Positions 1 through 64,000 of a DNA stretch of 64,000 nt are shown in pieces; position 1 is the stretch's first letter; every line of letters starts with the position of its first letter. Under the pieces are notes generated by a model. That model was not told where the DNA came from, searched no databases, and saw only the letters and a list, made by a program, of their open reading frames with translations. The DNA lies in assembly GCA_009782175.1 (NCBI GenBank), contig WRKR01000010.1:1-64000 (forward strand), given 5' to 3'. This DNA comes from Cystobacterineae bacterium (GTDB lineage Bacteria > Myxococcota > Myxococcia > Myxococcales > Myxococcaceae). The position numbers and the translations under genes were made by a program.

Positions 1-120
1 CTCGCCCGCCTCGACCTCATGTCCAAGCGGAGCGGAGGGAATGAAGAAAAAGCATCCTTTTTCTTCATTCATGGAGCGTAGTGCAGGCGAGCTTTAGCTC
101 GCCTCAATTGAAACCGGTCT
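1..120 (+). repeat. Dispersed MITE-like repeat, copy A (left end cut by window)
   Basis: This copy aligns base for base with 49965-50083. It holds a perfect 14-bp hairpin (arms 39-52 and 57-70, loop CATC) and a perfect 8-bp hairpin (arms 85-92 and 97-104, loop TTTA). It ends in the box CAATTGAAACCGGTCT (105-120). A second, weaker box ending in CGGTCT follows at 139-149. By comparison with copy E, about 47 bp of its left end lie outside the window. No gene is seen in 1-335. Confidence 0.7.
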
Positions 121-164
121 GGAGAATTACTTCAACCTGAAAACGGTCTAAAGCAAAACAAAGC

Positions 165-18442: not shown

Positions 18443-18547
18443 ACGTGGTCCCAAATAACGTGCCTCAAAACAGCGTGTCCAAAAACAACGTGCCTCAAAA
18501 CAACGTGCCTCAAAACAACGTGTCCAAAAACAACGTGTCCCACAATT
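18443..18547. repeat. 15-bp tandem repeat, seven units
   Basis: The core RCGTG recurs at exact 15-bp steps (18443, 18458, 18473, 18488, 18503, 18518, 18533) within units of the form CAAAACAACGTGCCT or CAAAAACAACGTGTC. It fills most of the gap between the diadenylate cyclase stop and the PHA-system gene start, so it lies in a probable promoter or leader. The last unit ends 25 bp before the ATG. Confidence 0.9.
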
Positions 18548-18935: not shown

Positions 18936-18985
18936 CACAGTCCACCGTCAACACAGTCCACCGTCAAAAACACAGTCCACGGTGG
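18936..18985. repeat. 16-bp direct repeat, three copies
   Basis: The sequence CACAGTCCACCGTCAA occurs at 18936 and 18952. A third copy from 18971 diverges after CACAGTCCAC. The array lies in the 240-bp gap between the PHA-system gene and the tRNA and abuts a copy of the dispersed repeat. Confidence 0.8.
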
Positions 18986-18990
18986 GTTGA

Positions 18991-19089
18991 AATAGGCTCG
19001 CTGCGCGAGGCGAGCTTGAGCTTGCCTGCTCCACTGCGCTCGTCAAAGAGCGGTTTTCGTTTGAAGTGAGCCTCAAGTGAAAGCGGTCT
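18991..19089 (+). repeat. Dispersed MITE-like repeat, divergent copy B
   Basis: This copy keeps the 8-bp hairpin (arms 19008-19015 and 19020-19027, loop TTGA) with a G.T pair where copy A has G-C and copy E has A-T. It also keeps the terminal box CCTCAAGTGAAAGCGGTCT at 19071-19089. The 14-bp hairpin of copy A is missing and the two parts are separated by about 44 bp, so the copy is rearranged. Confidence 0.6.
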
Positions 19090-19091
19090 GG

Positions 19092-23171: not shown

Positions 23172-26100
23172 TCACTTGCATGCCTTATGCACCAGCTCAA
23201 ACAATGCGGTATACATTCCCCTGCGCGAGGTGTCTGCTTTTTCACCTCCTTGCTCTGCCGCCTTTGCATGCCACTTGGCGGCTTTTGCGGGGTTTTGGGT
23301 CACACCTTCACCTCTGCTATACATTTCCCCAAGAGTATATTGCGCGTGCACGTTTCCTCGCTCTGCGGCTTCTCTTATCCACTTCATAGCTTCTGTGTTT
23401 TGGGGTTCCTTGTCTGTTGCTTTCTGTTGGAGCCATTTCAGGGCTTGTTCATTCCCCCCTGCTGCGGCTGTTTTCATCCATTGGAAAGCCGGGGCGCTTC
23501 CTTCGTCGGCTTCTTGTGTTATTTGCGCCATGGCTTCTGTGTTGCCTTGCTCTGCCGCCTTCGCCAACCACTTCATTGCCTCCGCTTCGTCTCTCGAAAC
23601 CCCCAGGCCTTGGAAATATATTTTCCCGAGAAAAAGCTGCGCATACACTTCTCCTTGCTTTGCCGTTTGGGTGAGCCACTTCAGGGCTTGGGCCTCGTCC
23701 TTTGCCACACCTTCGCCTTTAAAATAGCCTAACCCGAGGTGGTATTGTGCTTTCACATGCCCTTGCTCTGCTGCCTTTCTAAACCACTCTGCGGCTTTTG
23801 CATGGTTTTGCTTGCGGCTCCAGCCTCCCCAATAGCTCTGCCCAAGGTGGTATTGTGCTTCCACATGCCCTTGCTCTGCTGCTTTGGCGAGCCACTTTGC
23901 GGCTTTCCTGTCATTGGGGGTTAAGCTGCTTCTTTGCTGATCATATAGGTAGTATTGCTCTTCGACATCTCCTTGCTCTGCGGATTCCTCAAGCCACTTG
24001 AGGGCCTTTCTATGTTCCCCTCCCCCCGCTTTTCTCATCCACCTCAACGCTTCTGCGTGGTTTTTCGCAACACCTCTGCCTTCGGAATAGCTCAGCCCAA
24101 GCTGGTATTGCGCATCGCTATGTTTTTCCTCCGCTGCTTTGGCAAACCACTTCGCCGCCTGCAGTTCGTCCTTCGCAACACCTTTGCCTTCTAAATACAT
24201 GAGTCCAAGCTGGTATTGCGCGTCTCCATGAAGATATGTGCTCTCAGCCGCTTTTTTGAACCACTTTGCGGCTTCTGCTTCATCCTTTGCAACGCCTTCG
24301 CCTACTAAATACATCAGCCCAAGGTGGTGTTGCAGTCCTCTGTCTCCTTTTCCCGCGTCTCCTTTTTCCGCTGCCTCTCTAAGCCCCTCCAGTGCTTGGG
24401 CATTTCCTTTTTTTGCCGCTTCTCTAAGCTCCCTCTCGGCCATCACATCTCCTTGTGCCGCCGCTTTGGCAAACCACTTCATCGCCTGGGCTTCGTCTTT
24501 CTCGACGCCTTCCCCTTTTAAATACATCTCCCCAAGGGTGCGTTGCTCCGCGCTATCTCCTTGCTCCGCGCCTTTTTTCACCTCTGCTCTGCGCCACTTC
24601 AGCGCTTGGGCATCTCCTTGTGCAGCCGCTTCTCTAAGCTTCCACTTGGCCTCTTCATCTCCTTGTTCCGCTGCTTCTTGGAGCCACTTCTGCGCCTGGG
24701 CATCGTCCTTCGCAAAGTGTCTGCGCTTCCCAAGGGTGTGTTGTGCTTTTATATGCCCTTGCGCTGCCGCTTTTTGGAGCCATGTATCGGCTTCCTCCCT
24801 GTCGTAGTCCCTCATCATCCCGAGGTTATATTGCGCTTCCGCATCCCCCCGTTGCGCGGCTTCTTCAAGCCATTTCTCGGCTTGCTTATTCCCCCGTTGC
24901 GCCGCCTCTCCCATCCACCTTGTTGCTTCTGCAGGGTTCTTCGCGACACCTTGGCCTTCGGAATAAATCAGCCCAAGCTTATATTGCGAGTCCTCCATAG
25001 GGTAGTTAAGCAGCCCTCTTTTTTCTTCCACTTTTTTGAACCACTTCGCCGCTTCTGCGTGGTTTTTTGAAGTGCCCTTGCCATAAAAATAGAGCTCTCC
25101 AAGAGCATATTGAGCGCGTTTGTTTTCTTTTTCAGACGCTGCTTCTTTGAGCCACTTCAGCGCATTCGCCTTGCCTTGTTTCGCTTCATTTTCGAGCCAG
25201 CGCACGGCCTCCTTATGGTCTTGCCTCGCCGCTTTTCTCATCCACTTCGCCGCTGCTGCATTGTCCTTGGGCACCCCTAAGCCGCTGGCATATGCCACCC
25301 CAAGGTGGCATTGCGCATGCTCATCTCCCCACTCTGCTGCTTTTTTAAATTGCTTCAGCGCTTCTGCCTCTCTTTGTTTTTCCTCTTCTCTCAGCCACCG
25401 TGCAACTTGGGCATTTCCTTGTTTTGCCAATCCCCTCAACAACTCCAGTGCATCTTTATCTCCCCTATCTGCGGCTGCTTGGAGCCACTTCACCGCCTGG
25501 GCTTCGTCTTTTGCGACGCCTTTGCCGCTCAAATAGCTCTTTGCAAGAGCGTGTTGCGCGCTCACGTGGCCTTGCTTCGCCGCTTCTTTGAACCATTGTG
25601 CGGCTTGGGTTTCGTCTTTCGCGACGCCTTTGCCTTCTAAATAGAGCTCTCCCAAAATAAATTGCACTTTCGCGTGCCCCTGCTTCGCCGCTTCTTCAAG
25701 CCACTCGACGCCGGCTATTTCCATGAAGCGCTCCATCTCCCACATCGCCCGCGGCTCCGCTTTTTTCAACGCTTTCATGAGCCACTTCACGGACTCCACC
25801 TTGTCCTTCTCAACACCCAGGCCTTTGAAATAGCTCTGCCCAAGGGCCACTTGTGCCCTTAAATACCCTTGCCTTGCTGCCTCTTGGAACCACTTCACGG
25901 CTTCTGTTTCGTCTTTCGCAATGCCTTCGCCTTCTAAATAGTTCTGCCCCAGGGTAAACTGCGCATGTGCGTTTCCTTGCTTGGCCGCGCTTATGCGCTT
26001 CCTTGTCGCCTTTGCTTTCTCCTGCACCTTTAGAAGCAGCTCTTTAGCCTCTGCATGCCCTTGCTCTGCTGCTTTGCTGAACCACTTTTCGGCCTGAGCT

Positions 26101-26990
26101 TCGTCTTTCTCAACACCCAGGCCTTCAAAATGGCTCAGCCCAAGGAAAAATTGCGCGCTCGCTTCTCCTGCTTCTGCTGCTTTTGTGGAATTGTGCGCTG
26201 CTTTTTTAAACCACGCCTTCAATTCCGCTTTGTCTTCGTCGTCCAAACCATATGCATGTTGCTCCTCCGCCAGGTGAAGTTGCGCCCACGTATGCCTCTG
26301 CTCCGCCGCCGCCTTCAGCTGCTTTATGGCTTCTTTTTTGTCTTCCTTGACGTAATAGTTACTTCTATAGTGCCCCCAGCGATAGAGCACCCCAAGCTGG
26401 TATTGCGCCTTTGCGTCCCCTTGTTCTGCTGCTTCGCTGAATTGCTCCAGTGCCTTGCTGAACCACTTCGCGGCTTCTTCTCTGTCTTCTTCTACGCCAT
26501 CGCCATTCTGATACATCTCCCCGAGAATAAATTGCGCCTTTGCGTCCCCTTGTTCGGCTTCTTTTTTGAATTGCTTCAGTGCCTTGCTGAACCACTTCGC
26601 AGCTTCTTTTTCGTCTTTCTTTGCGCCATAGCCATCCTGATAGATCTTCCCGAGAATAAATTGCGCCTTCGCCTCCCCTTGTTCGGCTGCTTTTTTGAAC
26701 CACCTCTGCGCCTTTTTTGCGTTCTCCTCGCCGCCTTTGCGGCCCAATATCATCTGCCCCACATAATATTGCGCGCCCGCGTCCCCTCCTTCTGCCGCTT
26801 GCTGACAACGCTCCCGCGTCTGTATGTTGTGTGAATAAAGCAACTCCTCCTGGCAAACCTCCGCTGCCACAAAAGACGGTTGCTCCAAAATGGTTGCTGA
26901 AAATGGACTGCTGCTGCACCCCAGCAAAGACAAGGCCCCAAGCGCCACCACTGCAATGCTTTCTTTTCTGAGCAAACCCATTTTCATCAT
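23172..26990 (-). CDS. Very large Sel1-repeat lipoprotein
   Basis: About 1272 residues. A signal peptide ends in the lipobox LSLLGC, so the mature protein is lipid-anchored. The rest is Sel1-like repeats, roughly 25 units of about 36 residues following the pattern AQYxLGxxYxxGxGVAKDxxEAxKWFxKAAEQG, with several degenerate or stretched units. Such proteins act as scaffolds for protein contacts. The ATG at 26990 is chosen because GAGG lies 6 nt upstream; the frame extends to 27026. It is 39 bp from pheS but is probably its own unit. Partner and role are unknown. Confidence 0.85.
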   Translation of the reverse strand: MMKMGLLRKESIAVVALGALSLLGCSSSPFSATILEQPSFVAAEVCQEELLYSHNIQTRERCQQAAEGGDAGAQYYVGQMILGRKGGEENAKKAQRWFKKAAEQGEAKAQFILGKIYQDGYGAKKDEKEAAKWFSKALKQFKKEAEQGDAKAQFILGEMYQNGDGVEEDREEAAKWFSKALEQFSEAAEQGDAKAQYQLGVLYRWGHYRSNYYVKEDKKEAIKQLKAAAEQRHTWAQLHLAEEQHAYGLDDEDKAELKAWFKKAAHNSTKAAEAGEASAQFFLGLSHFEGLGVEKDEAQAEKWFSKAAEQGHAEAKELLLKVQEKAKATRKRISAAKQGNAHAQFTLGQNYLEGEGIAKDETEAVKWFQEAARQGYLRAQVALGQSYFKGLGVEKDKVESVKWLMKALKKAEPRAMWEMERFMEIAGVEWLEEAAKQGHAKVQFILGELYLEGKGVAKDETQAAQWFKEAAKQGHVSAQHALAKSYLSGKGVAKDEAQAVKWLQAAADRGDKDALELLRGLAKQGNAQVARWLREEEKQREAEALKQFKKAAEWGDEHAQCHLGVAYASGLGVPKDNAAAAKWMRKAARQDHKEAVRWLENEAKQGKANALKWLKEAASEKENKRAQYALGELYFYGKGTSKNHAEAAKWFKKVEEKRGLLNYPMEDSQYKLGLIYSEGQGVAKNPAEATRWMGEAAQRGNKQAEKWLEEAAQRGDAEAQYNLGMMRDYDREEADTWLQKAAAQGHIKAQHTLGKRRHFAKDDAQAQKWLQEAAEQGDEEAKWKLREAAAQGDAQALKWRRAEVKKGAEQGDSAEQRTLGEMYLKGEGVEKDEAQAMKWFAKAAAQGDVMAERELREAAKKGNAQALEGLREAAEKGDAGKGDRGLQHHLGLMYLVGEGVAKDEAEAAKWFKKAAESTYLHGDAQYQLGLMYLEGKGVAKDELQAAKWFAKAAEEKHSDAQYQLGLSYSEGRGVAKNHAEALRWMRKAGGGEHRKALKWLEESAEQGDVEEQYYLYDQQRSSLTPNDRKAAKWLAKAAEQGHVEAQYHLGQSYWGGWSRKQNHAKAAEWFRKAAEQGHVKAQYHLGLGYFKGEGVAKDEAQALKWLTQTAKQGEVYAQLFLGKIYFQGLGVSRDEAEAMKWLAKAAEQGNTEAMAQITQEADEGSAPAFQWMKTAAAGGNEQALKWLQQKATDKEPQNTEAMKWIREAAERGNVHAQYTLGEMYSRGEGVTQNPAKAAKWHAKAAEQGGEKADTSRRGMYTALFELVHKACK

Positions 26991-27257
26991 TTTTTCCTCG
27001 AAAAATTCAACTTGGCCTTTGTGCAAGCCGCACCCCCAAAGCTTTCAGGCAGTCTGTGCACTCTTGCTTCAAATATTCGTCGTTGCTTGTTTAACAGAGG
27101 GTGATTTTAATTCAACAAAACCCCTCCCGGGAGAAAGCAAGGCCCCTGGCTTCGTTGAGGAGGAAAATGGCCCCGACCTCACGCTCAGGGCTTTTTTTTG
27201 ACTTCGCCTCAAAGCCTTCTTTAATGCAGAAAAGCCAGCTCCACCTATGAGGCCTTT

Positions 27258-32167: not shown

Positions 32168-32201
32168 GCCGGCAAGCTATAGGCAAGTGCTTTGCTTGTC
32201 T

Positions 32202-32356
32202 AGGGCACTCCACTTTGCCCAAAGCCCCTCACGGAGCGGAATAGGCGAGCAAAGCGAGCCTCAACGGAGCATAGAGAAAGAGGAGAGCAAAGCTTTCGCA
32301 TTTTTCCCGGAGCGTAGCGCAGGCGAGTGCTAACGAGCCTCAAGTGAAAGCGGCCT
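32202..32356 (+). repeat. Dispersed MITE-like repeat, copy C
   Basis: The copy contains GGAGCGTAGCGCAGGCGAG, which differs from copy A at one base, and the terminal box CCTCAAGTGAAAGCGGCCT (32338-32356). A degenerate inverted match to that box begins at 32202 (AGGGCACTCCACTTTG). The end-to-end distance of about 155 bp agrees with copy E. Its hairpins are weaker than those of A and E. It touches the stop codon of the DUF3467 gene. Confidence 0.55.
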
Positions 32357-32642
32357 AATGCAAAGGCCTGTGGGCCTCGCCCACCTCAATGGGGCCATAT
32401 TGGGCCTCATAGCGAGCGAGGCTGTCTTTGAGGGTGGCCAGCAAACGCTTCATATGCCTGGGGTTGGTAATAATGCGGCTGAGCACCTTGGCACGGTTTT
32501 GCTGAGGCTGAATATAGAGAAAATCCATCGTAAACTCAGTTTCCGTGAGGTTAATGAGGGCCATGTTGCAATAAAGGCCATTGGCCACTTGCTCATCCAA
32601 AACAATTTGGAGCTGTATTTCAGGAGGGGAAGCTTCGGACAT
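32355..32642 (-). CDS. DUF3467 domain protein
   Basis: A 95-residue protein matching the DUF3467 family in order: LDEQVANGLYCNMALI, EFTMDFLYIQP, AKVLSRIITNPRHMKRLL and a terminal helix. Members are small cytoplasmic proteins of unknown function, common in Myxococcota and relatives. The ATG at 32642 is used because GGAG lies 5 nt upstream. The stop codon overlaps the end of dispersed repeat copy C, so the repeat forms its 3' end. Confidence 0.75.
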   Translation of the reverse strand: MSEASPPEIQLQIVLDEQVANGLYCNMALINLTETEFTMDFLYIQPQQNRAKVLSRIITNPRHMKRLLATLKDSLARYEAQYGPIEVGEAHRPLH

Positions 32643-48173: not shown

Positions 48174-48226
48174 GCCCCTCAAAACCCAACCAGGTGGCTT
48201 GGCTACGCTGCTCGGCCCTGCCTCCT

Positions 48227-48287
48227 CAAACACAGGGCTTTCCCAAACACAGGGCTTCTTCAAATACAGGGCTTTCCCAAACACAGG
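48227..48287. repeat. 17-bp tandem repeat, about 3.6 copies
   Basis: Units of the form CAAACACAGGGCTTTCC start at 48227, 48244, 48261 and 48278. This is the first of three unrelated tandem arrays in the 444-bp gap between nuoN and the pseudokinase gene. The unit is not a multiple of three, and no gene is seen across it. Confidence 0.9.
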
Positions 48288-48331
48288 CCAAGCGGCTGTG
48301 CATGGGTTTTGTTGGAAGCTGCATGCACCAA

Positions 48332-48415
48332 CAGCACCCATGCTCAGCACTTATGCTCAGCACCCATGCTCAACACTTATGCTCAGCACCCATGCTCAGC
48401 ACCCATGCTCAGCAT
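48332..48415. repeat. 13-bp tandem repeat, six or more copies
   Basis: Units of the form CAGCACCCATGCT or CAGCACTTATGCT repeat at exact 13-bp steps from 48332 to about 48415. This is the second array in the nuoN-pseudokinase gap. Confidence 0.92.
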
Positions 48416-48432
48416 GCTTGCTTCAGCAGTGC

Positions 48433-48537
48433 ATTGTTGCTTCAATAGATATTGTTGCTCCAATAGGTGTTGTTGTTTCAATAGGCATTGTTGTTTCAAT
48501 AGGTGTTGTTGTTTCAATAGGTGTTGTTGTTTGAAGG
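48433..48537. repeat. 18-bp tandem repeat, about six copies
   Basis: Units of the form RTTGTTGTTTCAATAGGT start at 48433, 48451, 48469, 48487, 48505 and 48523. The array ends 30 bp before the pseudokinase ATG and just before its ribosome site, so copy number would alter the spacing to any upstream promoter. Confidence 0.92.
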
Positions 48538-49502: not shown

Positions 49503-49539
49503 CTCCACCCCCATGAAGAGACATTCCCCAAACCCCGCT

Positions 49540-49592
49540 AGACCGCTTTCACTTAGAACTGATTTGATTCTCCAGACCGGTTTCAATTGAGG
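49540..49592 (-). repeat. Dispersed repeat, fragment D
   Basis: Two terminal boxes lie in minus orientation: AGACCGCTTTCACTT at 49540-49554 and CCAGACCGGTTTCAATTGAGG at 49572-49592 (positions given for the plus strand). The second is the exact reverse complement of 102-122 in copy A, and the pair repeats the spacing of the two boxes after copy A. The rest of the element to the right is not recognisable. Confidence 0.65.
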
Positions 49593-49640
49593 CAAGCTAC
49601 GCCCGCCTTAAAGCTCAAAGGGCTCTGCCCAGAAAAAAGA

Positions 49641-49758: not shown

Positions 49759-49917
49759 TTACATGAAGCACATTATGCGCCAAGTCAAGCCCAAAAAAGT
49801 CTCCCCCAAAAAATTCCTCTAAACCACTGTTTTTTTATAAATTTTTTTTAATATTTTTTTGAGACTCTTTTCCGTTTCCGGGGGGGGCCTTGAGAGCCTT
49901 CCCCTGCTTTTGCCTCT

Positions 49918-50083
49918 AGGCCGCTTTCACTTTGACATAAGTCTTCGCGAGGCGAGCTAAAGCCTCGTTCGCCTCGACCTCATGCCAAAGCGGAGCGGAG
50001 AGAAGGAAGAAAAAGCATGCTTTTCTTCCTTCATGGAGCGTAGTGCAGGCAAGCTTTAGCTTGCCTCAATGGAAACCGGTCTG
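49918..50083 (+). repeat. Dispersed MITE-like repeat, complete copy E
   Basis: The copy is about 166 bp, bounded by imperfect terminal inverted repeats: AGGCCGCTTTCACTT at 49918-49932, and the reverse complement of AGACCGGTTTCCATTG at 50068-50083. Inside are an 8-bp stem (49948-49955 with 49969-49976), the long hairpin (50002-50013 with 50021-50032 plus an inner pair) and the 8-bp hairpin (50047-50054 with 50059-50066, loop TTTA). Stem positions that differ from copy A change on both sides. No transposase is encoded, and target duplications are not clear. Confidence 0.7.
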
Positions 50084-50191
50084 TCGAATAACTTCAAAGG
50101 AAAACCGCTCCAGATGGCTTTTCCATGGCGTTTTGGCGTTTTCTTTTTTGTGGCGCGCAGCGGAGTGGTTTTGCGGCTATAGAGAGGCCGC

Positions 50192-55326: not shown

Positions 55327-58300
55327 TTATGAAGTGCTTTTTTGCGAAAAAGACCATTGCCCGAGGGCTTCCAATATATGGTTAACAATGCCTTTGAATG
55401 CTGCACTGGTTTTCAATCTTTCTCCAAAAGCATTGAAGTCAATCTCCGCATGTGCTCCTTCAAGTGCAACAAGCACACGAGCAGCAGCCATGAGTGATGG
55501 ATATGCCTTAAATGCCTCTTGAACAACCGATACCCACGTTTCACTTTCTGTGGCCAAGTCGCGACGCCCTGAAAGTACAAGCGCCAATGCCGTCAAATAA
55601 CCAAGCTCTGCTAAACCAAAGCGCGTCAAGGCCTCTTGTCCAAAAACCAACACATTGCCTGTTGCCAGCCAAGCCTCAACCCCTCCTCTTGTGTCCATAA
55701 CCAAAACCAATTCCTTGCCACCCAATTGCAAAACAACGTTGCGGAGAATTTGATAGGTTTTGGGCAAAGAGGATTCTGTCAGCAATAAAGCATCCTCAGG
55801 AGCAGGCAACACCGCACTATATTTTATGGGTGCTCCCAGAAGCATGGCCGCAGGCTCCATAGATGAGTTCAACACCGCAGCCAACTCATAAGTCCAACTC
55901 GAAAACTTCCCCTCTTCTCGCTCATGAAATACAAGCGACAAAGCCTTCCATGCTTCAACCTCTTCCCAGTTTTCTTTCAGAAGGTTTATTTGCGCGGCAA
56001 CATATAAGTCCTTCATTTCCGGCGACAAGGCCTTCTCACAAAAATCTGAAAGTTGCTTTGTCAAAACCAACGGTGGATTTTCTCTCGCCTCAAGAAATTT
56101 CCAGCCATAATCAAGAATGAGAGCTGTTTCTTCACTTGCAATGGCATTTGACAATTTGCCTGCAATAAATTGCGTTAACCTGTCCGTCGTGGGTTGTGTC
56201 TCATCCAGATCAGTCCTCGCCAAGTCTCCCTCAGCAGCTTGCGCTAAACCGCTCTCAACAGCTTGCGCTAAGTCTCCCTCAACAACTGGCGCTAAATCTC
56301 CCTCGGCAGCTTGCGCTAAGCCGCTCTCAGCAGCTTGCGCCAGATCTTCCTCAACAGCTTGCACCAATTCGTTTGCAAAGGATTGTGTCAATTCATCTCC
56401 AAAGAATTCTGCTGATTCGTCTTCGGGGAATTGCGTTGCTTCCATCAGGGATTGCATTTTGTCCGTAATGTTTCTGGCTCTGTATGCATCCTCAACGGGT
56501 TGCGTTGGCTGGCCTGTTGGCAGCTCTGCAGAAAATTTTTCAAAGTTCAGCTGCACGCGTAACTTTTGCATTTCCGGGTGATCTGCAAACTGTGAAACAA
56601 TTTCAGATGCTTGGTGGAAATGGTTGTTTTCAAAAAAGGCTGTGGCCAAGCGCAGCATGCGTTGAGTCCACAAATTGTCGGGAAGCGTATTTGGAAACTC
56701 TTTTCTCGTTTGAGAAAGCTGTTGGAAAGCTCCATCTAAATCACCCGCCTGCTCCATAGCATCTGCGGCATGAAGCCACCAGCGAGCTTTGAGGTCTCCC
56801 CCCACCATGTCAGCAGCACTCTTCCAGGCATTTGCTGCTTGCGCAAAATGCTTCAGGGAACGGTTCACCTGTGCAATGAGAAGCCAACCTTTGGTTGTTG
56901 GGCGCAACGCCAAAGAAGCACTTGCGGCACTCAGAGCTTCTTCGAAAGCCCCCGAGTTTTGAAAACCTTGTGCTGCTTCCAACAGCAGTTTGGCCGCTGC
57001 CTCTCCTGTTGCTTTTTCAGCGCGCCTTAACCATATTTGTGACAGACCTCGAATATTCCCCCGTTTCTTCCAAATACGCTCCAAGCCTTCCAAGGCTTTC
57101 AGTGAAAGCTCTTCTCCTCCTTTTTCGCTTAAAAACTCAAATGCTGCTATGGCACCATCCATGTCTTCCAGAGACTCTTTCTTCTCCCCCAACTCCATCC
57201 ATGCCTGGTAAATTTCTGGCAGCAATTCTTCAGGAGAGCGCTGAGTTAAAACGGGCAGCACTTCTCCAAGCGACACCCAATCTCCATTTTGTCTGCTTAA
57301 TCGCGCCTTGGCTTGCAATGCCGCCAGGTTTTGGTCGTCTAAAGCAAGGGCTTTGTCCAGCAAAGACAAACTTCGCCCAAAATTATCCTGAATCAGGAGC
57401 GCTGCTTCAATCAAAGCTTGTGCTCCTCTTTCTCCACTCACGGAATGCGCATAGCGCTCCCGCAAGTGCAGCTCCTCTTCCAGCATTCCCATTTCAGACA
57501 ACGTCGTCACTGTGCGGTTGAAAATCACCTCGTCAGTGGAGTTTAAATCAAACAACAACTGCAAAGCAGCAAGCCCTTTGTCTTTGAGCCCTTCTATTTT
57601 TGAAGCAGCATCCAAAAGGGAAAACGCTTCTTCACCCTGAGCTCTTTGCGCTATTACCAAGCGAACATGATAGAGGTTTTCTATGTCCCTTTGTATGGCA
57701 TAAACTTCAGCCAACCCAGACAAAGCCGCTGTGCCAAAATCACTTTCAGGGACAAGCTGCCATACTTGCTTTAATGCCTCTTCCGCATCAATAAAAGCCT
57801 GGCTCTCCATCGCCGCCTGAGACACACGAAACCAAAGCCTTGCCTGATCCTCTACACTCAAGCCTGAATTCCCTAAGTGCAACAAGCGCCTGTCAAAAGG
57901 TTGCGCAGCTTTGGCGCCTCCGGATTGAAAAGCCAATTCAGCTCGAGCATGCAACCCCTCCAGATCGTTTGGCACTCTTTCGAGCAGCAGATCATAAGCA
58001 AAAGCAGCTCCCTCCCAATCCCCTGCCTTCATCAAAACCGATGCGCGCTCTCTCAGCAATGAAAGCGCTTCTTCTTCTTCAGAGTGCTCCGCACGCTCTG
58101 CCAACAACGTGGAGAGTTTGAGGGGGTTTTGCTCAAAGCGCTTCTTCAGCCTCAAAAACGCACGGTCATCCTGTGGACATATTTCAAAAGCAAGCTGCTC
58201 ACACTGCACCGCTTCTTCTTGCTCACCCCATTGCTCAAAAATGTCCGCTGCCTCCAAAAACCGCACCAGCCCTTGCTCTGAAGGCTCCACTCCAGCTCGA

Positions 58301-61300
58301 CGGGCCAACAGCTTGGCCAAGCTCAACCATTCTCCTTGCTCTCTTAAAAAGCTGCAATACCTTTCGAAAACAGCATGCAAAGGGCTGCGCTCCAATAGCA
58401 GTTTGTCCAACTCTGCTGCCTCGTTGTGCTGCTTCAGCGTGTGAAGCTTGTCGGCAACGCACAGCAGCAAATGCATGTCTTCTGGTGCAGCAACGCGCGC
58501 GGCCAACAAAGCTGAAATGGCTTGGGCTTCACAAGCGGGTTGCTTCTCCCATATTTCCGCAGCTCGCATGAGCAAAGCAGCGCGCTCGCCTTCAACAGAA
58601 GTGGAAGCCAAGGTTTCAAAATAAGCCGCCATTTCTTCCTGGCGGTTTTGGCTTTCTAAAAATGCCAACAACCGCTGTTCTGCCAACTCAAAGCGAGGCT
58701 GCAACTTGAGGGCTGTTTTTAAAGCTTCCTGTTGCTCGCTGAAATTTCCAAGCTCCTGATAAGTATCCGCAAGCGCCACGAGAGACTTTGCCTTCTCTTG
58801 ACGCTCTGGCGTACTTCCTATGCAACGCAACAGCCACAACACACGGGTTTTGGCTTGCTCCATTTTTTGAGTTATTTCACGCCCCAGATTGGCAACCGCC
58901 CATTGAGGTGAAAGCCTCCATGCTGCCTCCAAATGGCCCAAGGCCTCTTGCCAACCCCCCTGTTTTTCCATAACCAGACGTGCTTGCCGAATATAAACCT
59001 CTGCCGCCTCCTGGTGTCTCCCCTCGTCCTCACAAAGCTCAGCCATGGCCTGCAGCGTGCGCAAAACCTCATGGATATTTCCCAATAACTCTTGCGCTCC
59101 TAACTCCTCTTCCCATGCCTCCAGTGCACCTTGAATGTCTCCCGCTCCAAGACGCAGCAAGGCAAGTTTGTTTAAATGTTTGGAAACAAGCTCCGGTTGG
59201 TTGAGTGGACGAAGCAAAGCCACATGCTCTTCTTGAAGGCTCTGCAGGTTTTCAGCTGTTTTTTCCGCTAACAAAAACAAACTCTCGCCCAAAGAGGTAT
59301 TTTTTAATTCGAGAAAAGCTTGCCGTGCAAACGCCAATGTTTGGCCAAAGAAACTTTCCCCCATCGGTTGCTCTTCAAAATGCTTGAGCCAAAAAAGCAT
59401 TCCCGCTTCTGCATTTTGAGCAGAAAGCAACGCCACCATTTTGTTGAGTGCCGGCAAGCATTGAGGGGAAGAGGAAAGAATATCCTCCAAAACAAGCTTG
59501 GCCTCTTCTGGTTTTCCAGCTGTTTCCAAAACATCCGCCAAATACAGTTTGGCCTGCTGACTTTCTTCGGGAAATGCAGCCGCATCCAAAGCTTCTGCCC
59601 ACTGCCTAACAACAGGCAACGCTTCTTCTATGGCACCTTTAAAATAAAGTAGCCTGGCAAACCGGCTTAACTCTTCCCCTTCGGCAGGGTGGAGTTTTTG
59701 CGCTTCTCTGAGCAAATGCAATTCTCTGCCATCATCGCTGAGCTGTTGTGCCCACTTCGCTGCATAGCGCAGCAAGCTTGCCGCTTGCACAGGGGGGGTA
59801 TTTTTGGCTGCTGCTTCTAAAAAACCAATGGCCTCTTGGAGTTCATTCTTTTTCGCCAGAAGCTCTGCAAGCGTGACGCGCAACGGCTGGCTTGGGTTTC
59901 CCAACACAATGGCTCTTCGGAGCGCAGCTTCAGCGGGAGCAAGCCAATTCAGTTTCTCCAAATAAACACGGGCCAACTCTTCATAAAGCAGCGCTGCTCC
60001 TGCTTTCGGCGCACGCAGCGCTTCTGCAGAAAGCACTTCGGACAAACCTTCAAAGTCGCCAACCTCTCTCAAGCAGCGTTTATAGCCTTCCAGCGCCGTC
60101 TCGTTGGATGGGGATAAGGCAAGAACTTCATCAAAAACTTGGCTTGCTTCTGCAAGCATGCCCCTTGTTTCCAGCGAGCCGGCGCGCGCCAAAAGGGCTT
60201 CGACACGCAAAGCATTGGGGCCTTGCTGTGCAGCCTTTGCAAAGGCCTCTTCAGCAGCAACAACATCCCCTTCTTCAAGCTTCTTTTGTGCCAAGCACAT
60301 CCAAGCTTGTGAGCGCACCGCTTCTGCAATGGGCAATTGGAGCGCAAGCTCCCAAGCTTGCACGCTCCAGGCAGCTTCAGGCATTTTTGCCAACGCAACC
60401 ACGCGGCCAGCTGCTTTTTGAAGGGCAGCCTCGTCTGATATTCCCGTCTCAACCGCTTGCCTCCAACAAGCCAACTCTTCGTCAAATGCTCCAAGCTCAC
60501 ACTCAATGCCTGCAAGGTGAACCAAAAGCTCCACGGAGGGCACAGCAAACAGAAACTTCGCCTGTCGCAAATCCTCTTTGGCTTTTGCAAAATCCCCCAT
60601 GGCCATATAGAGGTTTGCCCGTTCCCAAAACCAAGAAGCTTTTTGCTCCTTAACGGAGCAATGAATGAGGGCTTCTAACCAAAGTATTTTTTCTGGAGCT
60701 GCCGCCCCATTGCGAGCATATTTCCAAAGCAACTGTGGCGCCCAAGCATCTTCTGTCTCTTCAGAGAAGGCTTGGCGAAGCAACTCAACAATGGATGCTT
60801 GGACTCCCAGAGAAAGCGAAGCTTCAATATATTTTCGACGTATTGCCTTGGACTCTTCTTGAGGCACCAATGGCCACAGCTTTTCCAGGCATTCAACCTC
60901 AGCAGAAACATCCTCTGTCGTCTGAAAAAGCAATACGGCCATTCTCAACAACTCAATGTCCTGCGAAACATGTGGCAAGCACATTTTGACCCACTCCGCC
61001 GCCCTTTTGCTTTGAGCAAGTGCATGGGCACAAAAAGCAGCGCGCCTGGCAACTTCAACACGGTCTATGGACAAAGAAACTTGCTCTTGCTCTGTGGCAC
61101 TTAGCAAAATTTCGCAGTCATCCAAAGCAACAGCCGGCTCCACCTTCTCTGTCAACAAACTCCTTCTGAGTCTGGCAGCCAACAACAAACCATTGCAAGC
61201 AATGGCCTTCGTCAAAAGCTCCACCTCTTCAGGCTCTCCAACTTTCAACTGAGCAGCAGCCCAATAGCTTTCAGCCGCTCTCTTGGGCTCCACCGTATGA

Positions 61301-64000
61301 GTAGCGCACTCCGTCCAAAGCCGCGCGGCTTCTTGAGCGTCACCACTGCTTTCTGCCATTCTCGCCATCTGCTCCAATGCATAGGCTGCCTCGGGGCTGC
61401 TTGGCGCCACCTCAATGGCCGCTTGCAAACGCTGTACAGCCGGCATTCTCTGGGACAAATCCAAAAGCTGTTGTGCACTTTGGAAATAAAATAGGGCTGC
61501 CTCGCGAATGCGGCCTGCTTCACCCAAAGCTTGTGCACGTTTGTTCCAAAACTCAGCCAACTCAGCATAGGCAGCTTGGCTGCGCAACATGGCCTCCAGC
61601 TTGCCAGCCAACTCATCATCAAGGCGCCGGTGCACAAAAGCCTCTGAATAACACTGCAAAGCAGTCTCCTTGTCCCCCAGCCCTTCATAAGCCTTCCCCA
61701 ATTGCGCACGTATTTTGGCAATTTGCTCCGGCTGGTTGGTTGAAGAAGGGAGTGCAAGCCATGTCTCCAAAGCTTCCTTGGCCACATCCGCTCGCTCGCA
61801 CCTCCACGCCAACTCAACAAGCTCTGAAAGGCTGCCGGGCTCCTTCGTCCACAAAGCCACCTTCTGCAATGCTTCCAAGGCTTCTTTCTTTCGGCCCAGC
61901 CTTGCTTCAAAAACAGAAGCCAACTCTCGGAAAGCCTGCGTCGCCATGGGTTTGTCACCCTGGCGAAGCGCAATGGCGCCACGCTTCTCCAAAACGGTGA
62001 CAAGTGCAGGCATGTCATGTTGCAAACGGAGCAAATGACTGAGCTCTCCAAGCAACACCACATCCTCAGGCTCTTCTTGAAGCACCGCATTTAAAGAAGC
62101 AATGGCCAAAGGAAAATCCCCCACGGCTTTTGCGGATATGGCCAAGCGTCGGTGCAGCAATACCTTCCTGTGTGCGTCTGTCTCTTGCAACACCAACCCC
62201 TTAAGCACCTTGCAAACCAACGCACCGTTTTGCATTAGCTCGGCAAGCGACAATAAAGCCTCCAGGGTGGGGCGATGCGTCGGCGTGGCCTCAAACGCTG
62301 TTAAAAGCAGCTTGAGGGCATGCTCGGGTTTGCTCAACGGACCTCGATAAAGCTCTGCTGCTTCCAGCAAAAGCTCCGTCTTCTTCTGAGGAATGTTGAC
62401 GAAGGGGGCAGCGCGCTCACATATGTCGGCAAGCTCTGCCAACTTGCCGGCATTGCGGAACTTCGGCAACAACTCTTCAAGCAAAGACAAGTCCGAGGGC
62501 TCCAAAAAGAGTGCTGCCTCCAAATGGGTTTGCGCAAGCAGCGGGTTTTCCATTCTCGTCTGATAAAGGTGTGCCAATGCATGGTGTGCATGCGAAGCAA
62601 TTTTTTGGTTTTCCTTGGATTTAGGCAAAGAGCCCACCAACTCAATGGCCTGCTGAAATGAGGTTAGGGCTTCTGGCAAATGCCCCAAAACCTCGGCTAC
62701 GCGCCCTTGGCTTAACAAGGCCTCTGCGGAATGTGGCAAAAGCGAAGCCGCCTCACGGTAGCGAAGCAAGGCGTTTTCAGGCTGCTTTAAACCTTCTTCC
62801 CAAACTTTTCCTGCCCACATGTTGGCTTTTCCCACAAGTGGAATGTCATGGCGCAACAAGGCCACTTGCCGAAGTCTGTCCAAAGTTTTGAGCGCTCTTA
62901 GGTGCTCATCTCCCTGGAAACACAATTGCCCAAGGTGCAACAGGGCTTCGGGGTGGTCTGGCAAAATGCGAAGCGCAGCCTCACAATGCAGCCTGGCTCC
63001 AGCCAACTCCTCTGAGGACATGGCGCAAAGCCTGGCCAGGTGCGTATGCGCATGCGCCACTTCCATGTTGTCGCGCGAAAGCGCTGCAAGGCGCCTATAG
63101 GCGCGTATGGCGCCGGCCCTGTCTCTTGCTTTGTCGCAAGACTCTGCCAAAGCCCTCAACGAAGGCACATGGTCCGGCCGAATTCCCAAGGCTTCATGCA
63201 AAGCAGCAACAGCTATTTGCGGCGCCTGCTCTCTGCATATGCGCACAGCAGCCGTTGCTGCAAAAAAAGCCGAAGTCTCTTCTTGGTTTTTTCGAGCCAA
63301 CTGGCAAAGCTTCAAAAAGCATTCTCCTGCCTTGGCAGCCTCTCCGCGTTTTTCGTGGATGATGGCTTCTATCCACAAAGGCACTGCTGACTGAGGCCTT
63401 CGGCGAAGCAGCACCTGCGTCAAGTCCAAAGCAAACTCATGCGCCTGGGTTTCAGTGAGCATTAAGCTCAACAACCGCTCCACCGCAAAGGGGTGTGCCT
63501 CCATCGCCTCGCCTAATTTCAAATAGGCATTGCGCGCCTCATCCAACTGGCCTCTTGCCAACAACTGCTCCGCATCAGCAAAGGCACGCGCACCTTCGAG
63601 GTTTAACAACAAGGACTCATCCGGCAACATCAACGGAGGCATTCCCCCTGCTGAAAACTTCAGACGAATTCCCTTGGCGTCCACGCTGGCCTCCGCCAAA
63701 CGGGCCATCTCCAATGAAGGAATTCTATAGCCCCGGGAAACCGCCGCCCTCTCCACCAAACTGGGCAAAATGCGCGTCGTAAACCCATGTACACCCTGAA
63801 GGCGGACTTCAGGCAATATGCCGGAAGCCCCCAAAACCTCTACCAACTGCACCGCCAAACGCGACACCGGCATGGCCGCATAGGCATAGAGACGAAAGTC
63901 ATAAAAATAGACAGCCAACGTCTCCCCATCCCCGTCAAAGGCCATTTTCAAAGTGAAAGGGGCTAAGTTATATAAGCCTTGCCCCTCAATAAAACCATTG
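55327..64000 (-). CDS. Giant TPR-repeat protein (N-terminus beyond window)
   Basis: At least 2874 residues, nearly all helical tetratricopeptide-like repeats (for example ARLHCEAALRILPDHPEALL and ALTSFQQAIELVGSLP). The first ATG in the window is at 63945 (TTG 63951), without a ribosome site. The same frame stays open to the right edge and reads GFIEGQGLYNLAPFTLKM just before it, so the gene probably begins outside. Near residues 2530-2595 lies an 8-residue Ala/Glu repeat. The last 300 residues look like a separate globular domain. No signal peptide is seen. It is probably a large scaffold of unknown partner. Confidence 0.85.
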   Translation of the reverse strand, partial: NGFIEGQGLYNLAPFTLKMAFDGDGETLAVYFYDFRLYAYAAMPVSRLAVQLVEVLGASGILPEVRLQGVHGFTTRILPSLVERAAVSRGYRIPSLEMARLAEASVDAKGIRLKFSAGGMPPLMLPDESLLLNLEGARAFADAEQLLARGQLDEARNAYLKLGEAMEAHPFAVERLLSLMLTETQAHEFALDLTQVLLRRRPQSAVPLWIEAIIHEKRGEAAKAGECFLKLCQLARKNQEETSAFFAATAAVRICREQAPQIAVAALHEALGIRPDHVPSLRALAESCDKARDRAGAIRAYRRLAALSRDNMEVAHAHTHLARLCAMSSEELAGARLHCEAALRILPDHPEALLHLGQLCFQGDEHLRALKTLDRLRQVALLRHDIPLVGKANMWAGKVWEEGLKQPENALLRYREAASLLPHSAEALLSQGRVAEVLGHLPEALTSFQQAIELVGSLPKSKENQKIASHAHHALAHLYQTRMENPLLAQTHLEAALFLEPSDLSLLEELLPKFRNAGKLAELADICERAAPFVNIPQKKTELLLEAAELYRGPLSKPEHALKLLLTAFEATPTHRPTLEALLSLAELMQNGALVCKVLKGLVLQETDAHRKVLLHRRLAISAKAVGDFPLAIASLNAVLQEEPEDVVLLGELSHLLRLQHDMPALVTVLEKRGAIALRQGDKPMATQAFRELASVFEARLGRKKEALEALQKVALWTKEPGSLSELVELAWRCERADVAKEALETWLALPSSTNQPEQIAKIRAQLGKAYEGLGDKETALQCYSEAFVHRRLDDELAGKLEAMLRSQAAYAELAEFWNKRAQALGEAGRIREAALFYFQSAQQLLDLSQRMPAVQRLQAAIEVAPSSPEAAYALEQMARMAESSGDAQEAARLWTECATHTVEPKRAAESYWAAAQLKVGEPEEVELLTKAIACNGLLLAARLRRSLLTEKVEPAVALDDCEILLSATEQEQVSLSIDRVEVARRAAFCAHALAQSKRAAEWVKMCLPHVSQDIELLRMAVLLFQTTEDVSAEVECLEKLWPLVPQEESKAIRRKYIEASLSLGVQASIVELLRQAFSEETEDAWAPQLLWKYARNGAAAPEKILWLEALIHCSVKEQKASWFWERANLYMAMGDFAKAKEDLRQAKFLFAVPSVELLVHLAGIECELGAFDEELACWRQAVETGISDEAALQKAAGRVVALAKMPEAAWSVQAWELALQLPIAEAVRSQAWMCLAQKKLEEGDVVAAEEAFAKAAQQGPNALRVEALLARAGSLETRGMLAEASQVFDEVLALSPSNETALEGYKRCLREVGDFEGLSEVLSAEALRAPKAGAALLYEELARVYLEKLNWLAPAEAALRRAIVLGNPSQPLRVTLAELLAKKNELQEAIGFLEAAAKNTPPVQAASLLRYAAKWAQQLSDDGRELHLLREAQKLHPAEGEELSRFARLLYFKGAIEEALPVVRQWAEALDAAAFPEESQQAKLYLADVLETAGKPEEAKLVLEDILSSSPQCLPALNKMVALLSAQNAEAGMLFWLKHFEEQPMGESFFGQTLAFARQAFLELKNTSLGESLFLLAEKTAENLQSLQEEHVALLRPLNQPELVSKHLNKLALLRLGAGDIQGALEAWEEELGAQELLGNIHEVLRTLQAMAELCEDEGRHQEAAEVYIRQARLVMEKQGGWQEALGHLEAAWRLSPQWAVANLGREITQKMEQAKTRVLWLLRCIGSTPERQEKAKSLVALADTYQELGNFSEQQEALKTALKLQPRFELAEQRLLAFLESQNRQEEMAAYFETLASTSVEGERAALLMRAAEIWEKQPACEAQAISALLAARVAAPEDMHLLLCVADKLHTLKQHNEAAELDKLLLERSPLHAVFERYCSFLREQGEWLSLAKLLARRAGVEPSEQGLVRFLEAADIFEQWGEQEEAVQCEQLAFEICPQDDRAFLRLKKRFEQNPLKLSTLLAERAEHSEEEEALSLLRERASVLMKAGDWEGAAFAYDLLLERVPNDLEGLHARAELAFQSGGAKAAQPFDRRLLHLGNSGLSVEDQARLWFRVSQAAMESQAFIDAEEALKQVWQLVPESDFGTAALSGLAEVYAIQRDIENLYHVRLVIAQRAQGEEAFSLLDAASKIEGLKDKGLAALQLLFDLNSTDEVIFNRTVTTLSEMGMLEEELHLRERYAHSVSGERGAQALIEAALLIQDNFGRSLSLLDKALALDDQNLAALQAKARLSRQNGDWVSLGEVLPVLTQRSPEELLPEIYQAWMELGEKKESLEDMDGAIAAFEFLSEKGGEELSLKALEGLERIWKKRGNIRGLSQIWLRRAEKATGEAAAKLLLEAAQGFQNSGAFEEALSAASASLALRPTTKGWLLIAQVNRSLKHFAQAANAWKSAADMVGGDLKARWWLHAADAMEQAGDLDGAFQQLSQTRKEFPNTLPDNLWTQRMLRLATAFFENNHFHQASEIVSQFADHPEMQKLRVQLNFEKFSAELPTGQPTQPVEDAYRARNITDKMQSLMEATQFPEDESAEFFGDELTQSFANELVQAVEEDLAQAAESGLAQAAEGDLAPVVEGDLAQAVESGLAQAAEGDLARTDLDETQPTTDRLTQFIAGKLSNAIASEETALILDYGWKFLEARENPPLVLTKQLSDFCEKALSPEMKDLYVAAQINLLKENWEEVEAWKALSLVFHEREEGKFSSWTYELAAVLNSSMEPAAMLLGAPIKYSAVLPAPEDALLLTESSLPKTYQILRNVVLQLGGKELVLVMDTRGGVEAWLATGNVLVFGQEALTRFGLAELGYLTALALVLSGRRDLATESETWVSVVQEAFKAYPSLMAAARVLVALEGAHAEIDFNAFGERLKTSAAFKGIVNHILEALGQWSFSQKSTS
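56210..56380. repeat. 24-bp tandem repeat inside the TPR gene
   Basis: About six recognisable 24-bp units encode an 8-residue repeat of the type EGDLAQAA / ESGLAQAV, with two more degenerate units beyond them. The unit is a multiple of three. The repeat sits between the TPR array and the C-terminal domain and would form a flexible or helical acidic linker. Confidence 0.85.

Follow-up and report, generated by a model that had tools for sequence, protein, structure and literature searches.

A MITE-like repeat family with covarying hairpin modules in a Cystobacterineae bacterium and its closest relatives

The IS630-derived MITEs, such as RUP of Streptococcus pneumoniae and Correia of Neisseria, are short, gene-less elements bounded by terminal inverted repeats (TIRs), with TA within the target, a strong fold, a high copy number and a supposed mobilisation in trans. 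BOX of S. pneumoniae (boxA-boxB(n)-boxC) is composite, its independently folding internal module being absent or repeated, and BOX elements insert into one another (PMC3049150). REP/BIME and REPIN with RAYT are extragenic palindromes with a short G-rich foot, present in high copy and in mosaic arrangement (PMC2817692, PMC3116915). MITEPsy1 of Pseudomonas syringae, of about 100 bp with 18-nt TIRs, is thought to be IS5-derived and duplicates CTAG or YTAA as its target (PMC3189936). Apart from RAYT and the IS5 derivation, the repeat family described here shares these features with each of the systems in turn, the likeness to BOX being one of modular architecture by description. It was found in a stretch of 64,000 nucleotides (the window; G000:C10:1-64000) of a 2.70-Mb genome assembled into 65 contigs (99.95% complete), and is probably a genus-restricted, non-autonomous DNA transposon (MITE), with a likely IS630-like source and with the complementarity of its stem arms kept at the DNA level.

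Copies in the window and anatomy of the element

A sequence-only reading of the window had described a MITE-like repeat family in five related copies (A to E), and both the family and the copies were borne out. All of the base pairs that it quoted were read directly off the sequence: the fourth pair of the long stem is T42-A67 in copy A versus G50005-C50029 in copy E, and the fifth pair of the short stem is G89-C100 in copy A, G19012.T19023 in copy B and A50051-T50062 in copy E. The five loci stand as reported, whereas their boundaries did not hold and have been mended for copies E and C; copies A, B and D are incomplete or decayed (Table 1). The end of copy E was moved to 50113 because the outer end lies about 30 bp past the inner terminus at 50082. 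At copy B both flanks align with the orthologous locus of the related genome G034, where no copy can be recognised, and the stretch that carries copy A (C10:1-121) also begins contig C30 (blastn).

Table 1. Repeat copies, parts of copy E and other features of the window
Feature	Position	Strand	Evidence or description
Copy A, truncated at the contig C10 start, right part only	1..150	+	long stem at 39-70, short hairpin at 85-104, TA of the right end at 149-150
Copy B, decayed	18990..19091	+	right terminus 19068-19089 intact
Copy C, diverged, two hairpin units	32200..32358	+	CTAG left, CTAA right
Copy D, truncated right end	49538..49599	-	CTAG 49538-49541 marks the outer end; also inner terminus and half of a short hairpin
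Copy E, whole element	49916..50113	+	sequence; similar by blastn to 40+ genomic copies; matched by the covariance model at 49917-50002 (E=2e-4); order: left terminus, hairpin module, inner right terminus, outer right end; CTAG left 49916-49919, decayed CCAG right 50110-50113
Copy E, left TIR AGGCCGCTTTCACTTTGACATA	49918..49939	+	fits consensus AGACCGCTTTCACTTTGACATG
Copy E, hairpin module	49992..50067	+	GGAGCGGAG, long stem, GGAGCGTAG, short hairpin, CCTC
Copy E, long stem, GAAGGAAG... allele	50002..50032	+	right arm one T short
Copy E, short hairpin	50047..50066	+	AGGCAAGC TTTA GCTTGCCT; read from sequence
Copy E, inner right terminus CAATGGAAACCGGTCT and variable tail to the outer right end	50067..50113	+	inner terminus ends at 50082
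Short intergenic tandem arrays, 13-18 bp units, unrelated to the MITE	1978-2202, 18443-18547, 18940-18985, 48220-48287, 48319-48422, 48431-48535		
Open reading frame, 1,284 aa, Sel1-like	23172-27026		named from repeat appearance only
Open reading frame, 2,874 aa, TPR-like	55327-63951		named from repeat appearance only

A full-length element reads CTAG, TIR, interior, TIR and CTAG, with a TA-containing variant in place of CTAG in some flanks, the TIRs of about 22 bp carrying GACCGSTTYCAMTTTGRCATGA at both ends. At its shortest, as in L164, a full element is the 126-bp core, running from CTAGACCG to CGGTCTAG, and longer forms, up to 403 bp, carry additional hairpins at fixed points. Most copies in the own genome have an extra tail of about 34 bp, at whose end the terminal motif recurs. 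The largest of the optional modules consists of GGAGCGGAG, a long palindrome, GGAGCGKAG, a short hairpin and CCTC; it may adjoin the right end on the inner side, lie within the left end in reverse orientation, occupy both places or be missing. Its long stem occurs in at least eight sequence alleles, each staying complementary. Chimaeric stems, with the left arm from one allele and the right arm from another, are found in L018, L019 and L243, as expected from recombination or deletion between modules. The palindromic module is an optional insert inside either end of an element whose single strand folds end to end.

Two related kinds of sequence were seen beside this family. The long-stem module occurs without MITE ends in L029, L236, L259, L260 and L263, beside repeats of the GCAGGGCG/GGGCCGCAGGCCC type, a context that constitutes a second mosaic repeat family. 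A longer, nearly all-palindromic element with ends TAGACCGATTCAAAGTTGAAATG (L215:2064-2247 in G034:C1, with a G020 copy in L172) represents a sister MITE subfamily.

Copy number, target site and transposase

Copy E gave 77 blastn matches genome-wide. The TIR pattern matched 189 times, against 10 for a reversed-pattern control, and the corresponding counts were 71 against 0 for the left end pattern, 82 against 1 for the inner right end and 44 against 0 for the box pattern of the hairpin module. A genome search with a covariance model, the check that the sequence-only reading had named, was run with the core and yielded at least 68 matches at E<=0.001 in the own genome, some copies being counted on both strands. 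The family is thus far larger than five copies, and the possibility held out against it, that just these few exist, fails on the counts against controls. Copies were gathered by searches and from fetched stretches, and the copy counts, including the figure of more than 50 in the own genome, are lower bounds since covariance-model scoring covered 150 of 1,681 first-look candidates. The elements are short, non-coding, dispersed and in many copies nearly identical.

The family is present in all three members of the genus (G000, G020 and G034) and in none of the 36 genomes sampled from other genera of the same family. In a search of 84,980 species, each represented by one genome, the left end was found solely in the related metagenome-assembled genome 'Cystobacterineae bacterium isolate Emb289P3bin65', a lineage that, from the isolate name and PMC7024585, appears to come from termite gut; a search of plasmids, phages and viral contigs gave no match. 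The genomes of this genus measure 2.1-2.7 Mb versus 3.9-13 Mb elsewhere in the family, marking a reduced lineage.

In 164 of 169 left-end contexts, taken from all fetched loci of which some overlap, A precedes GACC, giving a (C)TA pattern. The empty site was observed by comparison with G034, in which L227 reads GGGTAGGCCTCAA with a single GTAG, versus AAGCTAG-element-CTAGGCCTCAA at L070 of the own genome; consistent with this, a gene that ends CCC-TAG in G034 (L231) reads CGC-TAG-element in the own copy (L080). One clean case and two diverged ones underlie this comparison; at L069 and L042 (copy B) the alignments have diverged too far to place the target and were left out for that purpose. Since the target is present once in the empty site, it is identified as TA within CTAG. 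Duplication of TA with a preference for CTAG, as seen here, is characteristic of IS630/Tc1-mariner elements, with the proviso that TA and CTAG duplications are indistinguishable on a palindromic target; the preference of IS630 for TA in CTAG is attributed to Tenzen and Ohtsubo (1991) as cited in PMC2170065. Given the clean empty site and the near-identical copies, the element transposes or recently did, and the earlier opposition between an RNA structure and a merely decaying transposon is false.

The element was most likely moved by a trans-acting, IS630-like transposase with TA within CTAG as target, of which no intact source is left in the assemblies. A transposase with matching ends was not found in the three draft genomes of the genus, which is weak evidence of absence because assemblies break at repeats and a multicopy IS may be missing from them. 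No DDE_3 (IS630) gene was detected in the own genome, and among TIR pairs 0.6-3.5 kb apart none encloses a transposase, the pairs enclosing ordinary genes or nothing. A decayed IS630-type DDE_3 fragment (...EAAGATIRYLPPYSPDLKS...) lies just after tyrS in G020 (L266:1336-1632, G020:C219), with no recognisable matching ends.

Movement by an IS5-type (IS427-like) transposase with a 4-bp CTAG duplication, from a relative of the single DDE_Tnp_1 element of this genome, is unlikely. That element (L235:1096-1930, at about 56,600 of G000:C7), an IS5/IS427-like IS with two overlapping frames, has CTAG on its own flanks too and has inserted at the margin of a decayed MITE copy, and MITEPsy1 offers a precedent for the target (PMC3189936). 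Its ends AGCGTGTCGTCAATAAAT, however, are unlike the MITE ends AGACCGCTTTCACTT, for which reason it was rejected as the source, and in flanks that depart from CTAG the TA is better kept than the C. Because the outer C varies more than TA, IS630 is favoured over IS5.

Insertion at stop codons

Among the 41 elements with usable flanks, 19 (46%) supply at their left junction the stop codon for a frame longer than 100 codons, whereas the two alternative frames combined yield 6 readings of this kind; genes were called simply as longest ORFs. In L036, L127 and L013, both of two convergent flanking genes end at the junctions. Insertion at a stop codon leaves the gene unbroken: the stop is restored because the target is duplicated, and it is restored on both sides where convergent genes share the palindromic CTAG. 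Neighbouring genes were convergent in 24 cases, codirectional in 13 and divergent in 4 (raw counts).

The background of CTAG was examined for comparison. In 391 kb of G034 stretches CTAG occurs 293 times versus 1,511 expected from base composition, an about five-fold depletion. In the window and the G034 stretches together, 44 of 307 CTAG sites (14%) fall at predicted stop codons and 197 lie inside genes. If insertions inside genes are purged, the share of stop codons among the sites outside genes and at stops becomes 44/110 (40%), which is close to the 46% seen, and special recognition of stop codons is therefore unnecessary. Insertions within genes presumably were purged, concentrating the survivors at gene ends, and the depletion of CTAG together with the share of C-TAG stops may have shaped the surviving insertion sites. 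The family illustrates a simple way for a transposon to do little harm: its palindromic target is rare inside genes, is created by C-TAG stops and is restored by duplication, which rebuilds the stop on both strands at once where convergent genes share the site.

Stem covariation and comparison with known systems

The compensatory changes noticed in the window copies proved to extend genome-wide beyond chance in covariation tests. In eleven distinct 57-nt modules, 97.7% of the stem cells are paired and 10 of 16 pairs change on both sides, one long-stem pair showing all four Watson-Crick types. The covariation score of the module was 0.534 versus 0.173 when shuffled (0/500) and at most 0.138 when the alignment was slid; as the copies share ancestry, shuffle counts are not probabilities and the slid control is the safer one. 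When whole right arms were shuffled, Watson-Crick pairing fell to 72% versus the observed 96% (0/5000), and a shorter, less variable class of modules gave a weaker signal (52/5000). The 18 cores from three species share an end-to-end fold of 43 pairs, 6 with two-sided change, among them the linked change of TTTCG to TTTTG opposite CGAAA to CAAAA. The A1 consensus of the core folds at -39.75 kcal/mol, and the z value of the DNA fold is -5.0 (core) or -6.9 (module). Of the long stem, the two innermost bases are free but the pairs flanking them covary; folding of a single strand therefore plays some part.

Template switching between inverted-repeat arms leaves just such a compensatory signature and needs no selection on RNA; during replication it both makes and mends perfect stems, inverts loops and replaces a run of adjacent pairs in one step (PMC8794818, PMC8604942). 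The stem alleles of the present family differ by blocks of neighbouring pairs, which fits template switching. Template switching or selection on folded single-stranded DNA accounts for the covariation as well as selection on RNA does. Arm complementarity is probably kept at the DNA level, by template switching or by gene conversion between arms and copies, and this upkeep, whether or not a fold that serves transposition is also selected, would explain the stems better than selection on a transcript. Selection for a fold that is used in mobility is possible.

A rival proposal, in which mobility in the style of IS200/IS605 or REP/RAYT keeps the stems under selection as single-stranded DNA folds or cruciforms and template switching does not homogenise them, is doubtful. 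The free innermost bases with covarying flanks and the occurrence of the module outside the MITE are in its favour, and GCGAAGC, which forms a DNA mini-hairpin of unusual stability, is frequent in the short hairpins. In addition, each hairpin has GGAGCGKAG at its 5' foot, recalling the GTAG/GTGG foot of REPs (table in PMC2817692). However, a Y1_Tnp/RAYT transposase gene was found in none of the three genus genomes, the E. coli control being positive; TIRs and a duplicated target are DDE traits; and the module is optional, elements of 126 bp without it having spread well. In a related but rather improbable scheme, the unit formed by GGAGCGGAG, palindrome, GGAGCGKAG and short hairpin is mobile on its own and enters the MITE and other repeats as a folded strand, its stem being rewritten whole yet complementary either by repeated template switching or by an enzyme that reads the foot boxes and the fold, not the stem sequence.

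Selection on a structured RNA, with transcription of the copies and a role of the hairpins within the RNA (attenuation, stability or protein binding), is quite improbable; the earlier reading had seen selection on an RNA, or on a folded single strand, implied by the series G-C, G.U and A-U at one pair. The series is real, the two-sided covariation is strong and beyond chance as expected of a structured RNA, and many copies lie at the 3' ends of genes where they would be transcribed. Selection on RNA predicts one privileged strand, G.U intermediates and intolerance of broken stems, a pattern that the copies do not clearly show. No single transcript strand appears privileged, because the module is opposite at the two ends of the element and occurs also outside it; it is moreover optional, A.C, A.G and T.C accompany G.U among the mispairs, and the unpaired chimaeric stems of L018, L019 and L243 persist. 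At the Rfam gathering score a single tRNA was the only match in the window, and at E<0.1 two sub-threshold microRNA models fell on perfect hairpins; the element itself contains no intrinsic terminator. The inference of RNA selection is thus not established. An assembly artefact, with collapsed or chimaeric repeats at contig ends yielding apparent variants, is barely credible: contigs C5, C10, C13, C22, C27, C28, C30, C38, C41-C43, C55, C57 and C62 start or end in a copy and C10 and C30 start with identical bases, but most copies analysed are internal to contigs with unique flanks and the same family with the same fold occurs in two independently assembled relatives; some contig-end copies only, such as copy A, are affected.

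Two-sided pair changes are widely held to be proof of functional RNA. Here, in a clear natural case, dozens of copies of an evident transposon within one genome carry them, and this MITE allows the step from covariation to RNA to be examined directly against template switching.

From the known systems the family is set apart in several respects. Unlike RUP and Correia, to which it is unrelated in sequence, it has no source element found, and it carries optional palindromic modules near both ends and makes precise use of C-TAG stop codons. Unlike that of BOX, its module is inverted at the two ends, has at least eight complementary long-stem alleles and occurs also outside the element. In contrast to REP/RAYT, it resides in a genus without RAYT, is bounded by TIRs, duplicates its target and has a variable, not a conserved, stem sequence. 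With MITEPsy1 it has no terminal sequence in common, the pattern of its ends being TAGACCGSTTYCAMTTTGRCATG; the source of MITEPsy1 is probably IS5, and no modules have been described for it (PMC3189936). The family is best filed as a new genus-level MITE family, IS630-like by its target and BOX-like in its modules.
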